Below, piece after piece: positions 19,807 through 55,104 of a DNA stretch of 64,000 nucleotides (positions are counted from its first letter, which is position 1; each line of letters begins with the position of its first letter). The translations under genes were made by a program, and so were the position numbers. Source of the stretch: Streptomyces sp. CG 926 (lineage in GTDB: Bacteria; Actinomycetota; Actinomycetes; Streptomycetales; Streptomycetaceae); the NCBI RefSeq assembly GCF_003148825.1, contig NZ_QGGZ01000012.1, positions 62,001 to 126,000 of the forward strand, read 5' to 3'. The notes beneath the pieces were generated by a model. That model was given only the letters and a program-made list of their open reading frames with translations, had not been told where the DNA came from and made no database searches.

Positions 19807-20403
19807 CTACACGTCCAAGTGACCGGTGTCGTTCCAGCGTTCCAGCGCCGGCGCGCCGTACGCCCACCCCAGGACCGAGAGGGAGGTCGGCTCCAGGCGG
19901 ATGCGGGCACCGAAGGAGGCTTCGAAGCCGAGCCAGCGGGCGGCCAGCGTGCGCAGGATGTGGCCGTGCGCGAAGACCAGGACGTCGCGTTCCGCCGCAC
20001 GCGCCCACGCCACGACCTCGTCCGCCCGCGCCGCGACGTCCGCCACGGACTCACCGCCCGGGACCCCGTCCCGCCAGATCAGCCAGCCCGGCCGCACCGC
20101 CTGGATCTCGGCCGGGGTCATGCCCTCGTACTCGCCGTAGTCCCACTCCATCAGCGCGTCCCACGGCTCGGCCCGCGCCCCGAAGCCAGCCAGGTCGCAG
20201 CTCTCGCTCGCGCGCACCAGCGGGCTGGTGCGGACCTCCACGCCCGGCAGGCCCCGCCAGGGGTCCCGCGCCAGCCGCTCGCCGAGCAGCTTCGCGCCCA
20301 GCTTGCCCTCCTCCAGCATCGGCACGTCCGTGCGTCCGGTGTGCTTGCCGAGCTGGGACCAGGCCGTCTGGCCGTGGCGGGCCAGCAGGATGCGGGGGGC
20401 CAT
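19807..20403 (-). CDS. Histidine phosphatase family (phosphoglycerate mutase-like) protein
   Basis: A 198-aa member of the histidine phosphatase superfamily. The catalytic RHG is in [11 protein letters not shown] at residues 4-14, the acid E in EWDYGEYEG near residue 84, and the second histidine in VFAHGHILR near residue 155. Substrates in this branch range from sugar phosphates to alpha-ribazole phosphate and cannot be assigned. ATG 20403 was chosen over an upstream frame because the family starts at MAPRIL. It converges on the inverted-repeat region. Confidence 0.88.
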
Positions 20404-20521
20404 GTGAATTCTCCCGGTCGAGTCGAGTCCTTCCATCATCCAACAGCCGGGCACCCGGCAGCTCGCCCGGCCCGTACCCCCGCCCTCACCACCGGTTTCC
20501 GCGGTAGGTCCACGATTGTCA

Positions 20522-21730
20522 GTGGCGGATGGGACACTTCCGCGGGTGAGCTCCTACCCGCCCAGCAGCCCCGCGCAGCCGACGACTCTGCGGCAGCGGC
20601 TCGCCGGTCTGCGCGGCCCCGCCGTGCCGCCCCGTCCGCTCGACGCCCGGGCACTGGCGGCCCTCGCCGCCAATCCCGGCTGCGGCAGACGCGCCCTGCT
20701 CGACGGCGCCGGGGTGGACAAGACCGCCTTGGCGACGGCGCTCGGCTCGCCCGCCTCGTTCGGGCAGTCGCAGTTCGCGATAGTCCGCGGGAACTCCTTC
20801 GAGGCCAAGGTCAAGGGTGACGGCGGCGCCGAGCTGCTGCGGCTGGTCCACGCGCACCTCGCGCCGACCACCGAGCCGCCCGGGCCCGGCGCCCGCGTCC
20901 CCGACCTGACCGCCGCCGGGCCCGAGGGCCGCGCGGCCCGGACCGCGCTCGCGCTGCGCGAGGCGACCGCCGCCGGCCTCGACGCCGGGGCCTGGACGCT
21001 GTTGGACCACCCGATGCTGGCCCTGGAGGTGGCCGGTTCCCCGGCCTATCTGGAGCCCGACGCCGTCGTCGTGCACCCCGACGGTCGCTGGACCGTGGTG
21101 GAGATCAAGTCGTTCCCGATGATCGACGGCGCCGCCGACGCCGCGAAGGTGGGCGCCGCCGCCCGGCAGGCCGCCGTCTACGTGCTGGCGCTGGAGAAGA
21201 CCGCCGGCAAGCTGCCCGGCGCCGAGGTGGGGCACACCGTGCTGCTGGTCTGCCCGAAGGACTTCTCCAACCTGCCCACCGCCGCCCCCGTCGACATCCG
21301 CCGCGAGCGCTCCGTGACCCGCCGCCAGCTGGACCGGCTGACTCGGGTCGAGGAGCTGGCCGCCGCGCTGCCCGAGGGCCTCAGCTTCGATCCGGCGACC
21401 CGGACCGCCGAGGAGCTCGACCGGGCCGTGTCGGCGGTCGACGCCGCCTACGCCCCCGAGTGCCTGGCCGCGTGTGAGCTCGCCTTCCACTGCCGTGACC
21501 GGGCCCGTTCCGCCGACCAGGTCACCGCGCTGGGCCGGTCGGTACGGGGTGAGCTGGGCGCGCTGACCACCGTCGAGGCCGCCCTCGCGGCGGCCGGCGG
21601 GACCGGCTGCGCCGAGGATCCGACCGCCGCAGCGTTGCACCGGGCCGCCCGGTTGCGCGCCGAGGCCTTGGACCTGGCCGCCGCCCGTCCGCCGCACCCC
21701 TCCCCGGAGACCCCCGCATGCCCCTGCTGA
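20522..21730 (+). CDS. PD-(D/E)XK nuclease-like protein with possible Fe-S cysteines
   Basis: A 402-aa protein with a RecB/Cas4-like PD-(D/E)XK core: D180 in EPDAVVV, then E194 and K196 in VVEIKSF. Four cysteines are placed like the iron-staple of Cas4 and AddB nucleases: C54 early, then C314, C318 and C324 late (C-x3-C-x5-C, versus C-x2-C-x5-C in those families). The [15 protein letters not shown] segment matches RecB-like exonucleases. It overlaps the next gene by 13 bp and forms a three-gene operon with an SF1 helicase. The start could also be GTG 20546. DNA processing is likely, but the pathway is unknown. Confidence 0.7.
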
Positions 21731-23310
21731 GCACTCTGGCCCGGCTGGAGGCCGTACGCGCGGGTCGCGCCCAGCCGCTCGCGACCGTCCGGCACCGCCA
21801 CCTGAGCGAGCGCCCGATGGTGTTCGTGCCGCTGACCACGGCCGGTGAGGCGGGTGCCCCGCTCGGCGCGATGGTGGGCACCGACCGGCACGATCCGCGG
21901 CTGTTCGTGATACCGCAGCCGCGCGACCGTGACCGGCGCTGGGCCTTCCTCGCGGACCTGGCCGTGCAGGTGCTGGCCCACATCGACGCGTACGCGGACG
22001 CCGTGGAGCCGGCCGAGCGCAGCGAGACCGACCCGGAGACGGGCAAGAAGGTCAAGGTCGAGACCGAGCTGTGCGTGGACGCGCCGCAGCTGATCGTGCC
22101 GAGCCGGGCGGGCGTGGAGTACGTACGGCTGCTGGGGCGCTCGATGCGCTTCCGGCGCACCGCCGAGGAGGATCCGGAGAATCCGTATCCGGCGCCTTCG
22201 CAGGTGCCGCTGCTCGGGCGCTGGTTCACGCACCTCGCCGAGCGTTCGCGGGTGCCCGGTTCCTCGATGCTGCTGTCGGCCACGGACCTGTTGTCCCGGC
22301 ACTGGGCCACCGGCCAGAGCAACCTGGAGGACCAGCACCTGGGCGCACTGCTGGGTTGGATCGACCCGCCCGAGGGCCGGTCGGGTGCCGAGGAGGCCCA
22401 TCGGGCCGAGCTGGGCCGGGGCAAGGACGGCCAGCTGCTGTGTCCGCCCGCCGGTCCGGCCACCGACCCGGCCTTCGACAACAAGCTGCTGGCCCCGGCC
22501 ATCACCCGCTACGACGCCGCGCGTACGGAGCTGGCGGCCGGGCTCGGGGACGACGACCGCCGTGTCCGGGCGGCCGAGCAGGAGGTGCGCCGGCTGGTCG
22601 AGTCCCAGCTGTCGAGCACGTGGTGGAAGACCTGGGAGGCGATCGACCTGCTGCGCGCGCTGCCGCCGGGTGAGCGTGCGGAGGAGCGCTGGACGCGCGA
22701 CCGCTGGTCCTACACCGGGCACCGGGACCGGGTACGGGCGGGCGAGCCGCCGCAGCCGCGCCGCGACGACGCGGTGACGGCGGCCCAGAAGCTGGCCACG
22801 CGGGAGACCGAGCAGGTGCGGCTCGACGCGCAGGAGGCCTTGGACGATCCCTTGGTGATGGCGGGCCGGCGGCTCGCGGGCGAGGCCTTCGCCGGTGAGG
22901 TCACCGAGGTGGTGATGGAGTGGACGGAGTCGAAGCGGCCGAGTCCGCGTCCGTTGGTGACGGTGTCGACGGAGGACCGGCCGCAGCTCGCGGACGAGCG
23001 TGGCGCGGGCGGCGGGAAGGTGTTCCGTTCGCTGGACGGGCGTCCGCAGAGCGCGCAGTTCGTCCGCTTCGAGGAGGGCGGGCAGGTGGTGCTGCGGCTC
23101 CTGGACAAGATGGGCCGCGGCCGGGATCCCGAGCCGGGGTCCGTCCCGGAGAAGGGCGACCGGCTGTGCTGGACGCTCTTCGAGCACGACGCGCGCGGCG
23201 GCCCGAAGCTTCCGGACCCCGAGCAGACCCCGTGGACGCACGGCGGCCCGCCGGGATCGGCGGGCGCCCTTCCCCTGCCCGACTCCGTGACCGACGAGGA
23301 CCTGCTGTGA
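21718..23310 (+). CDS. Unknown protein between nuclease-like and helicase genes
   Basis: A 530-aa soluble protein that I do not recognise. It begins [16 protein letters not shown], has an MVFVPLTTAGEAGAPLGAMVGT region and a long charged middle with coiled-coil character (about residues 255-305 and 355-385). A later TESKRPSPRPLVTVSTEDRPQL segment suggests a small beta domain. It overlaps its upstream neighbour by 13 bp and its downstream neighbour by 4 bp, so all three are made together. The tight coupling argues that it is a subunit or adaptor of a nuclease-helicase complex. Confidence 0.7.
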   Translation: MPLLSTLARLEAVRAGRAQPLATVRHRHLSERPMVFVPLTTAGEAGAPLGAMVGTDRHDPRLFVIPQPRDRDRRWAFLADLAVQVLAHIDAYADAVEPAERSETDPETGKKVKVETELCVDAPQLIVPSRAGVEYVRLLGRSMRFRRTAEEDPENPYPAPSQVPLLGRWFTHLAERSRVPGSSMLLSATDLLSRHWATGQSNLEDQHLGALLGWIDPPEGRSGAEEAHRAELGRGKDGQLLCPPAGPATDPAFDNKLLAPAITRYDAARTELAAGLGDDDRRVRAAEQEVRRLVESQLSSTWWKTWEAIDLLRALPPGERAEERWTRDRWSYTGHRDRVRAGEPPQPRRDDAVTAAQKLATRETEQVRLDAQEALDDPLVMAGRRLAGEAFAGEVTEVVMEWTESKRPSPRPLVTVSTEDRPQLADERGAGGGKVFRSLDGRPQSAQFVRFEEGGQVVLRLLDKMGRGRDPEPGSVPEKGDRLCWTLFEHDARGGPKLPDPEQTPWTHGGPPGSAGALPLPDSVTDEDLL

Positions 23311-24647
23311 CCACGACCGCTTCCTTCGACCCGGGTGCGGCGGCCGCCCGGGCGACCGCCGCGATCCTGGCCGACACCCTGCACGGGTCCGAGCGGGGCG
23401 TGGTCGTCGACTCCCCGCCGGGCGCCGGCAAGTCCACGCTGGTGGTCCGGGCGGCCCGGGAGCTGGCCGCGGCCGGCCGCCGGTTGATGGTGGTGGCGCA
23501 GACCAACGCGCAGGTCGACGACCTGGTGCTCCGGCTCGCGGAGAAGGATCCGGAGCTGAAGGTCGGCCGGTTGCACAGCAGTGAGGGGGACTCCTACGAT
23601 CCGGCGCTGCGCGAGCTGCCCTCGGTCACCCTGTCGGCCAAGCCGAAGGATCTGGCGGAGTTGCCGATCACCATCTCCACGGCGGCCAAGTGGGCGTTCG
23701 TCAAGGACGTCGAGCCCTGGCAGCACGCGATCGTCGACGAGGCGTACCAGATGCGTTCGGACGCGCTGCTGGCCGTGGCCGGGCTGTTCGAGCGGGCGCT
23801 GTTCGTGGGCGATCCGGGGCAGTTGGACCCGTTCAGCGTGGTCGGCGCGGAGCAGTGGGCGGGCCTGTCCTACGACCCCTCGGCCTCGGCGGTGAGCACC
23901 CTGCTCGCGCACAATCCGCAGCTGCCGCAGCACCGGCTGCCGGTGTCGTGGCGGCTCCCGGCGTCGGCGGCGCCGCTGGTCTCCCGCGCCTTCTACCCGT
24001 ACACGCAGTTCCGTAGCGGTACGGGCCCGGGCGAGCGGCGGCTGTCGTACGGGGTGCCCTCGGACGGGTCGGGTCCGGACCGGGTGCTGGACGAGGCGGC
24101 GGAGGCGGGCTGGGGCCTGCTGGAGCTGCCGGCGCGGCACACCCCGCGCACCGACCCGGAGGCGGTGCGGGCGGTGGCCCTGGTGGTCCGTCGGGCCTTG
24201 GACCGGGGGGCGGTGACCTCGGACGAGCAGTCCCCGGCGCCGTCCCCGCTGACGGCGGACCGGATCGCGGTGGGTACGGCGCACCGGGATCAGGCGGCCG
24301 CGGTCCGTGCGGCGTTGGCCTCGCTCGGGGTCACGGGGGTCACGGTGGACACCGCGAACCGGCTGCAGGGCCGCGAGTACGACCTCACGGTGGTGCTGCA
24401 CCCGCTGTCGGGCCGCCCGGACGCGACGGCGTTCCATCTGGAGACGGGCCGGCTGTGCGTGCTGGCCTCCCGGCACCGGCACGCGTGCGTGGTGGTGGCC
24501 CGGGCGGGGATAGCGGAGCTGCTGGACGACCATCCCTCGACGGAACCGGTCCAGCTGGGCGTGACGGTCAAGTTCCCGGACGGCTGGGAGGCGAACCACT
24601 CGGTCCTGGCCCATCTGGCGGAGCACCGGGTGTCCTGGCGGCCTTGA
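23307..24647 (+). CDS. Superfamily 1 (DNA2/NAM7-like) helicase or ATPase
   Basis: A 446-aa compact SF1 enzyme. Walker A SPPGAGKST is at residues 36-44, Walker B VDEAYQM at 143-149, motif III GDPGQLDP at 168-175, motif IV-like SWRLP, motif V DTANRLQGREYDLTVV and motif VI ASRHRHACVVV. The family acts on DNA or RNA; accessory 1B and 2B domains are very small or absent. GTG 23307 overlaps the previous stop by 4 bp. With the PD-(D/E)XK-like gene it recalls AddAB/RecBCD, Cas4-associated or anti-phage nuclease-helicase systems, but it is not an orthologue of any I know. Confidence 0.8.
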   Translation: MTTTASFDPGAAAARATAAILADTLHGSERGVVVDSPPGAGKSTLVVRAARELAAAGRRLMVVAQTNAQVDDLVLRLAEKDPELKVGRLHSSEGDSYDPALRELPSVTLSAKPKDLAELPITISTAAKWAFVKDVEPWQHAIVDEAYQMRSDALLAVAGLFERALFVGDPGQLDPFSVVGAEQWAGLSYDPSASAVSTLLAHNPQLPQHRLPVSWRLPASAAPLVSRAFYPYTQFRSGTGPGERRLSYGVPSDGSGPDRVLDEAAEAGWGLLELPARHTPRTDPEAVRAVALVVRRALDRGAVTSDEQSPAPSPLTADRIAVGTAHRDQAAAVRAALASLGVTGVTVDTANRLQGREYDLTVVLHPLSGRPDATAFHLETGRLCVLASRHRHACVVVARAGIAELLDDHPSTEPVQLGVTVKFPDGWEANHSVLAHLAEHRVSWRP

Positions 24648-24727: not shown

Positions 24728-25189
24728 GTGATGACCGTACGACGCAAGCGCCTCACGACGTGGCTCGTGATCACCGGCACGACGGCCGTACTGGCCGTCG
24801 GAGGCTGGTGGGCGTACCAGGTGTCGGCGGCCATGGTCGGCACCTTGGGCGTGCCCTGCGACGAGGCGGCCCGGTTCGTCCGCGCCGCCGAGCTGCCCGC
24901 GGGGACGCGCGACCGGCGGTGCACCACCGGCCAGTGGTTGAGCATCTCGTACGAGCTGGACTTCCGCGCGCCACGGGAGGAGACGGAGGCGTGGCTCCGG
25001 GCCTCCTATCCCGACATGGAGATCTCCTGGGGATGCTCGGGCGCCGACGCGTGCGGGAGGGCGCAGCTGCGGGGTCGCACGCCCTTCAATGACAAGAACG
25101 GCCAACGACTCGCGGACGGCGTGAACATCGAGCTGGACCACGAGGACGGGGACGTCACGCACGTAAGGATCTCCGGGTTCACCGTCTGA
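24728..25189 (+). CDS. Membrane-anchored hypothetical protein
   Basis: A 153-aa protein with a short basic N-terminus, one membrane helix (residues 11-31) and an extracytoplasmic domain of about 120 residues. The domain has four cysteines (C44, C65, C102 and C108, approximate) that could form two disulfides. Its N-terminal third (VPCDEAARFVRAAELPAGT) resembles small streptomycete surface proteins of unknown role. GTG 24728 fits the AGGGGG ribosome site better than ATG 24731. Confidence 0.6.
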   Translation: MMTVRRKRLTTWLVITGTTAVLAVGGWWAYQVSAAMVGTLGVPCDEAARFVRAAELPAGTRDRRCTTGQWLSISYELDFRAPREETEAWLRASYPDMEISWGCSGADACGRAQLRGRTPFNDKNGQRLADGVNIELDHEDGDVTHVRISGFTV

Positions 25190-28085: not shown

Positions 28086-28159
28086 GCGCCGCTAGCTCAG
28101 TTGGTTAGAGCAGCTGACTCTTAATCAGCGGGTCCGGGGTTCGAGTCCCTGGCGGCGCA
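28086..28159 (+). tRNA. tRNA-Lys (anticodon CTT), copy 1
   Basis: Acceptor 28086-28092 pairs with 28152-28158, with discriminator A at 28159. The anticodon loop reads CTCTTAA and the T-loop TTCGAGT. CCA is not encoded. Sequence is identical to the copies at 45845-45918 (minus) and 55024-55097. Confidence 0.97.
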
Positions 28160-28176
28160 CAGCGAGGTAATCGCCT

Positions 28177-45839: not shown

Positions 45840-45844
45840 ACAGG

Positions 45845-45918
45845 TGCGCCGCCAGGGACTCGAACCCCGGACCCGCTGATTAAGAGTCAGCTGCTCTAAC
45901 CAACTGAGCTAGCGGCGC
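45845..45918 (-). tRNA. tRNA-Lys (anticodon CTT), copy 2
   Basis: Minus-strand gene identical in sequence to copies 1 and 3. The acceptor 5' strand is at 45912-45918 and the discriminator at 45845. Confidence 0.97.
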
Positions 45919-55023: not shown

Positions 55024-55097
55024 GCGCCGCTAGCTCAGTTGGTTAGAGCAGCTGACTCTTAATCAGCGGGTCCGGGGTTCGAGTCCCTGGCGGCGCA
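55024..55097 (+). tRNA. tRNA-Lys (anticodon CTT), copy 3
   Basis: Same sequence as copies 1 and 2: acceptor 55024-55030 with 55090-55096, discriminator A at 55097. Confidence 0.97.
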
Positions 55098-55104
55098 CAG
55101 ACGG

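Follow-up and report, generated by a model that had tools for sequence, protein, structure and literature searches.

A putative split Dna2/RecB-like nuclease-helicase behind a predicted DNA-damage-type promoter in the Streptomyces core genome

Background

Eukaryotic Dna2 combines, in a single chain, a RecB-like four-cysteine nuclease and a superfamily 1B (SF1B) helicase carrying a 1B barrel; the cysteines of its nuclease follow a 1 + 3 spacing. AddAB, AdnAB and RecBCD are end-processing machines whose motors are UvrD-like superfamily 1A (SF1A) helicases borne on the nuclease chains, and AddB and AdnA carry iron-sulphur-type cysteines. We describe here a three-gene operon (genes 1 to 3) of Streptomyces sp. 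CG 926, located in a 64,000-nucleotide stretch of its genome (hereafter "the window": contig NZ_QGGZ01000012.1, positions 62,001 to 126,000, forward strand). The genome is of Streptomyces type, high in GC and 8.5 Mb in size. From sequence comparison and modelled folds, the operon is best read as encoding a Dna2/RecB-like nuclease-helicase with its domains split over three proteins, and we think it fairly likely that these form a damage-inducible DNA-end processing complex.

The operon resembles Dna2 in pairing a four-cysteine nuclease with an SF1B helicase and a 1B-type barrel. It differs from Dna2 in being bacterial, in lying behind a promoter of putative damage type, and in distributing over three separate proteins, with an extra RNase H-like domain, what Dna2 holds in one chain. 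The nuclease fold of gene 1 is shared with AddAB, AdnAB and RecBCD, but the motor of the operon is of SF1B type, not UvrD-like, and resides on a chain of its own. The closest solved folds to gene 1 are Cas4 and the Argonaute-associated Cas4 (ACE1), to which the operon adds a helicase and the gene 2 partner.

Organisation of the operon

The three open reading frames lie head to tail on the + strand. Their coordinates confirm the overlaps of 13 base pairs (bp) between genes 1 and 2 and of 4 bp between genes 2 and 3 that a preliminary description of the locus had noted. The elements discussed below are the following (aa, amino acids):

20516..20538, + strand: promoter motif TTGTCAGTG-N8-GACACT, predicted RecA-independent DNA-damage (RecA-NDp/PafBC) type
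20546..21730, + strand: gene 1, predicted Cas4/AddB/Dna2-type PD-(D/E)XK nuclease with four conserved cysteines, 394 aa from GTG 20546
21718..23310, + strand: gene 2, 530 aa, modelled as an RNase H-like domain plus a C-terminal beta barrel
21808..22692, + strand: gene 2 residues 31-325, match to residues 135-341 of an archaeal family B DNA polymerase
22855..23181, + strand: gene 2 residues 380-488, barrel matching domain 1B of IGHMBP2
23307..24647, + strand: gene 3, RecA domains of an SF1B (Upf1/IGHMBP2/Dna2-like) helicase

The predicted nuclease and helicase

Gene 1 exhibits a weak Pfam match to PDDEXK_1 (E-value = 0.0049) and no NCBIfam match at E-values up to 1. With residues numbered from GTG 20522 as residue 1 (a frame of 402 aa), the three core residues and four cysteines singled out in the preliminary description are found at their positions and are strongly conserved over 127 homologues: D180 in 123, E194 in 125, K196 in 124 (arginine in the other three), C54 in 124 (the other three being gaps), and C314, C318 and C324 in all 127. 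H163 (124), Q216 (127) and Y220 (126) are conserved as well. The sequence thus presents both the PD-(D/E)XK core (H, D, ExK, QxxxY) of the four-cysteine RecB/Cas4/AddB/Dna2 superfamily and its cysteine arrangement, one upstream and three downstream. An AlphaFold model built on a 47-row alignment (predicted local distance difference test, pLDDT, 91.5) was compared with solved structures using VIA. The Cas4 chain 7mi4_A was matched with Z = 10.9 and a root mean square deviation (rmsd) of 4.4 over 198 residues, ahead of EXO5 and RecE (both Z = 9.2), AdnA (8.7), AddB (7.8) and Dna2 (7.0). Conservation, modelled fold and the Cas4 match together support the assignment of gene 1 as a Cas4/AddB/Dna2-type nuclease, the iron-sulphur-type cysteines of which would hold an iron cluster. 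Profile matches of gene 1 to two engineered proteins contained zero passing stretches and were treated as noise.

The superfamily 1 motifs reported earlier for gene 3 are present, and are kept over 126 homologues (GAGKST, DEA, GDPGQLDPF, SWRLP, NRLQGREYD and SRHRH). Pfam assigns AAA_11 (8.3e-12), AAA_30 (1.9e-8) and AAA_12 (3.6e-6), none of the 15 matches listed being to a UvrD family. The nearest sequences in the PDB are SMUBP-2 (IGHMBP2; 2.6e-12) and DNA2 (1.1e-10), followed by UPF1. Judged by its sequence, gene 3 belongs to the Upf1/IGHMBP2/DNA2 group of SF1B helicases, IGHMBP2 and DNA2 being its closest relatives. In Upf1-type helicases the 1B barrel is located before the Walker A motif. 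The gene 3 chain is short (446 aa) and starts close to Walker A, so it would lack such a barrel.

A modelled RNase H-like domain and barrel in gene 2

Gene 2 had been described as having no recognisable fold. It has no match in Pfam, NCBIfam (E-values up to 1), PADLOC or PHROGs, none among PDB sequences, and none among viral structures at an E-value of 0.001. Its AlphaFold model (pLDDT 90.6, 49-row alignment) nevertheless consists of an RNase H-like domain and a 1B-type barrel. Residues 31-325 match residues 135-341 of the archaeal family B DNA polymerase 7b07 (VIA Z = 9.4, rmsd 3.7 over 181 residues), a stretch that we take to be the RNase H-like proofreading exonuclease domain. At the expected first strand no DxE was found in the 49-row alignment, P38 and L39 being nearly invariant there. 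Since DxE is missing at this place, the domain is probably not an active DEDD exonuclease, provided that the residues are equivalent.

Residues 380-488 match residues 36-139 of IGHMBP2 (4b3f) with Z = 8.7 and an rmsd of 2.3 over 84 residues, and further matches are obtained with Sen1 (Z = 7.9) and senataxin (Setx, Z = 7.8); the matched stretches are presumably helicase domain 1B in each case. The same segment also matches reductase-type barrels, such as the dihydroorotate dehydrogenase B subunit, with Z up to 7.9, and the modelled barrel fold would thus be insufficient by itself to prove a helicase 1B role. As the barrel directly precedes gene 3, it is likely a 1B-type helicase domain whose RecA domains are encoded by a different gene.

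These folds raise the question of the substrate. A helicase that is Upf1/Sen1-like, next to an RNase H-like fold and with the RNA helicases UPF1, Sen1 and senataxin among its nearest solved relatives, could act on RNA or on RNA-DNA hybrids (R-loops) instead of DNA ends. One clade of the operon family even adjoins genes of the pPIWI-RE system, which the accessible part of PMC3702460 proposes to target RNA-DNA hybrids. We regard such a role as improbable: DNA2 and SMUBP-2 rank above UPF1 for gene 3, gene 1 is Cas4-like, gene 2 appears to lack the DxE expected of an active RNase H-like nuclease, and the promoter class described below is common to DNA repair genes.

Comparison with fused TIGR03491 proteins

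The fused proteins of the TM0106/TIGR03491 kind exhibit the same linear order of nuclease, RNase H-like domain and SF1B helicase, gene 2 being placed in this comparison by fold only. The four actinomycete examples scanned are single chains of 1,128-1,252 aa, unlike the three proteins of the operon. All four show RNase_H_2 followed by AAA_11/AAA_12, and Pfam detects a preceding PDDEXK_1 in one of them; TIGR03491 itself we assume to model the nuclease part of the fused proteins. Alignment of gene 3 with their helicase region by hhalign gives an E-value of 4.5e-21. TIGR03491 was not found above its family cut-off in any of the 31 relatives searched, nor in this genome. Direct membership was rejected, given the lack of an NCBIfam match and the non-significant profiles of genes 1 and 2. 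Because the order and gene 3 match and genes 1 and 2 do not, the operon would be a split and diverged machine of this kind rather than a member of it. The Dna2-like reading draws on the same correspondence, as the gene order mirrors that of the fused RecB-nuclease/RNase H/helicase proteins.

In a machine of this design, gene 2 would dock its barrel onto gene 3, thereby completing the helicase, and would hold gene 1 at the point where the DNA leaves. The complex would most likely load onto DNA that is broken or single-stranded, which gene 3 would pull and gene 1 would cut. After damage, it would unwind and trim broken or collapsed DNA.

Conservation of the operon

The three genes occur together in all 20 of the first relatives and, in a wider sample (80 relatives kept out of 309 found in one scan), in 75 of 80; the other five are cut by contig ends. 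One of the 75 (L060:10902-12494) has suffered an internal deletion that removed the nuclease core and fused the N-terminus of gene 1 in frame to gene 2. Such linkage, in 20/20 and 75/80 relatives, is more than chance. The joint DNA-processing role first proposed is accordingly supported by fold, conservation and permanent linkage: the model of gene 1 shows a nuclease fold, and relatives keep the genes together. The genes might simply be co-transcribed, their proteins acting separately and gene 2 being a regulator. This is very hard to credit when order and adjacency are kept, apart from the contig-cut cases, in mobile and core clades alike, and when the domain missing from gene 3 is just the one that the barrel of gene 2 resembles.

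Of 41 relatives, 32 have gene 2, among them every one of the 25 genomes from the same genus; it was also detected in 187 of 199 Streptomyces and, in a sample of the phylum, in 14 of 396 genomes. All five core relatives with long flanks (L021, L022, L028-L030) share the flanking genes. The window copy is chromosomal, core, syntenic and vertically inherited. The question whether it is core or islanded, raised in the preliminary description, is settled in favour of the former, an islanded origin being ruled out by the presence of gene 2 in 187/199 Streptomyces together with the synteny. The operon is not essential, since 12 of the 199 Streptomyces are without detectable gene 2. Two pattern matches in viral contigs were not confirmed, and no relative was found in the phages searched.

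SCO5183/SCO5184, which we take to be AdnAB, were rejected as the S. coelicolor orthologues. In the accessible part of PMC6637917 they are named only as ATP-dependent DNA helicases, and SCO2863, which appears there among the helicases, proved to be a false lead.

Upstream of the operon is a divergent histidine phosphatase gene (19807-20454). The next + strand gene after gene 3 starts at 24728. It is not kept beside gene 3 in relatives, and the operon therefore probably ends with gene 3. Elsewhere in the window, three tRNA-Lys (CTT) genes lie within 27 kilobases (kb), at 28086-28160, 45843-45918 and 55024-55098.

A predicted promoter of DNA-damage type

The sequence TTGTCAGTG occupies positions 20516-20524 and is followed by GACACT at 20533-20538, seven further bases and the GTG at 20546. 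Its consensus form, TTGTCRGTG, is found exactly in 25 of 28 core Streptomyces genomes and with one mismatch in the other three; these 28 are the 30 core genomes less two without usable upstream sequence (L007 and L019), duplicate loci from one genome being counted once. The spacing from motif to GTG is conserved across the genus. The gene 1 start at 20522 given in the preliminary description falls inside this motif. As 20516-20524 is a promoter motif and GTG 20546 is conserved, gene 1 would start at the latter and encode 394 aa, probably on a leaderless message.

The recA promoter of Streptomyces is of a similar kind. For the PafBC motif, a consensus TGTCGG/TGTCAG-10N-TA-3N-T is given in the accessible part of PMC8151990; that consensus is mycobacterial, not from Streptomyces. 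The pattern TTGTCRGTG-N8-TAnnnT occurs at 17 sites in the genome of strain CG 926, and its reversed control at none. Six of the ten scanned genes downstream of such sites are recA, radA (assigned by sequence, Pfam giving AAA_25/ChlI-type domains), a UDG family gene, ruvC, polA and uvrC. The remaining four encode DUF4132 (L173), DUF3670/SNF2 (L179) and SWIM (L187) proteins and one protein without a family (L184). The last (L184:1531-2925) is a 465-aa protein with no Pfam match, beginning seven bases after a perfect promoter of this type. A pattern including the GTGA start matched in 168 of 199 Streptomyces, some of the sites being located elsewhere than at the operon; among the matches listed, its reversed control gave zero in every genome. 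We predict that the operon is transcribed from a promoter of the RecA-independent DNA-damage (RecA-NDp/PafBC) type. Of the evidence that places the core operon in DNA-damage repair, this predicted promoter is the strongest.

A sister clade beside SbcCD and Wadjet

A second form of the operon, made up of paralogues, possesses an extra fourth gene, hyp281, for which a weak match to UVR was all that the family search gave. In 45 of 80 loci hyp281 is preceded by divergent SbcCD. Wadjet is present in the fetched flank of 37 of these 45 loci versus none of the 35 without divergent SbcCD; by PADLOC families the 37 comprise 14 of type I, 11 of type II and 12 of type III, and L070 was not counted despite its JetA/JetB calls. 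A tree was built from 109 sequences, the distinct rows kept among 121 for which all three proteins were available; gene calls longer or shorter than set limits were omitted. It separates into two halves: one of 44 tips, 37 of them Wadjet-linked (two plasmid records included), and one of 65 tips with none. The node uniting the core clade with the pPIWI-RE-linked loci has no support. The Wadjet type requires 12 changes on the tree, versus a mean of 17.6 and a minimum of 11 in 1000 shuffles, which indicates that Wadjet types have been swapped often. The TTGTCRGTG motif was found upstream of the fourth gene in none of 86 paralogues.

The compound islands of SbcCD, hyp281 and genes 1-3, mostly with Wadjet I, II or III, are L031, L032, L034-L073, L075, L094, L095 and L103; the Wadjet type is exchanged between close relatives among them. 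In L026 and L138 the four-gene form adjoins pPIWI-RE nuclease and REase genes, and L026 also has an SMC-like ATPase gene. Equal-scoring hyp281 copies lie near both chromosome ends in two genomes (G459:C1:24151 and 10652172; G533:C1:24343 and 8507423), probably in terminal inverted repeats, and plasmid copies are also near record ends. Within the 199 Streptomyces, hyp281 was detected in 17, with a JetA gene within about 15 kb in at least 8 of these (adjacent in 6). Most JetA2 and JetA1 loci of this sample are without the module. No description of the SbcCD/four-gene/Wadjet linkage was found in the literature searched, which covered few subscription papers and preprints, and no paper on a "PLuB system" was found there. 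The diDNases, as described in the accessible part of PMC11706625, form a distinct family, with proteins about 200 aa long.

Wadjet JetABCD is thus a frequent neighbour of the sister clade, and shares the promoter type in its core type III and mobile type I forms. The association belongs to the paralogue: the window operon encodes no Jet protein, tblastn with Jet queries of types I-III found no match in the window, and PADLOC found none in the three operon proteins. JetA3 was detected in 193 of 199 Streptomyces, including this genome (L130, G000:C7:24732-26183), where no three-gene module lies beside it and the variant TTGTCAGCA-N8-TAGTCT is found upstream. Among the matches listed, 40 sites read CCTAnTCT...GTGA or close to it, and 34 of them are located 45-81 bp upstream of JetA3; in a comparison by hand, five of the others had no JetA3 position among those listed and one was on another contig. 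In mobile islands the exact motif lies 79-83 bp upstream of 10 of 13 JetA1 genes. The unlinked core Wadjet III of many Streptomyces would thus often share the promoter type of the operon.

These data bear on the choice between repair and defence, which the preliminary description had left undecided. The window copy is repair-like (core, syntenic and behind a putative damage-type promoter); defence islands with Wadjet or pPIWI-RE are the setting of its paralogues. The core operon might yet itself defend against plasmids or phages, working in trans with the unlinked core Wadjet III and using DNA damage only as an alarm signal. Paralogues adjoining Wadjet I, II, III, pPIWI-RE or other defence genes, the near-universal JetA3 and the promoter type shared with JetA3 and JetA1 all speak for this. 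We nonetheless consider it unlikely: the core copy is vertical and syntenic with no Jet gene in the window, this genome has no hyp281 and no SbcCD adjoining the operon, and losses of the core operon and of core JetA3 do not coincide over the 199 genomes, barring two low-completeness assemblies.

A broader scheme, which we advance tentatively and with more doubt than belief, would make actinomycete Wadjet one half of a damage-inducible two-stage DNA-destruction pathway, in which the SMC complex recognises and cuts circles and the split Dna2-like machine consumes the linear product. Its halves would stand together in islands, and unlinked but under one promoter type in the Streptomyces core. Wadjet cleaves circular, not linear, DNA, according to the accessible part of PMC10586767. 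The sister clade would have recruited the same engine, with the fourth protein and SbcCD, beside Wadjet. In these mobile loci, SbcCD could open ends that are blocked and hyp281 may contribute to DNA binding, so that the linear DNA left by JetABCD cleavage could be resected and destroyed. The core copy would apply the same activity to repair, perhaps with core Wadjet III on damaged extrachromosomal circles.

Several observations weigh against our interpretation of the operon and its extension to Wadjet. By hhalign, neither gene 1 nor gene 2 matches the fused proteins significantly (E-values of 0.096 and 0.21), and the domain matches of gene 2 are middling (Z of 8.7-9.4). The -10 element in the window, GACACT (nAnnCT), is without the first T of TAnnnT. 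A dozen Streptomyces have no detectable gene 2, and losses of operon and JetA3 do not follow each other, as noted above. At the loci examined, the exact motif was upstream of none of 9 JetA2 and none of 12 JetA3 genes, that of this genome included. Finally, the context of the sister clade need not reveal the function of the core copy.

Conclusion

If the proposed split nuclease-helicase is real, a function would be assigned for the first time to a three-gene operon that nearly all Streptomyces retain and whose middle gene is covered by no family model of the libraries searched. It would also offer a bacterial Dna2-like machine whose parts can be separated, and a concrete way to test which events follow cleavage by Wadjet. 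The sister version travelling with Wadjet links a repair-type machine to bacterial immunity, and the shared promoter type together with the repeated linkage suggests that damage response and plasmid immunity may be run by the same parts.

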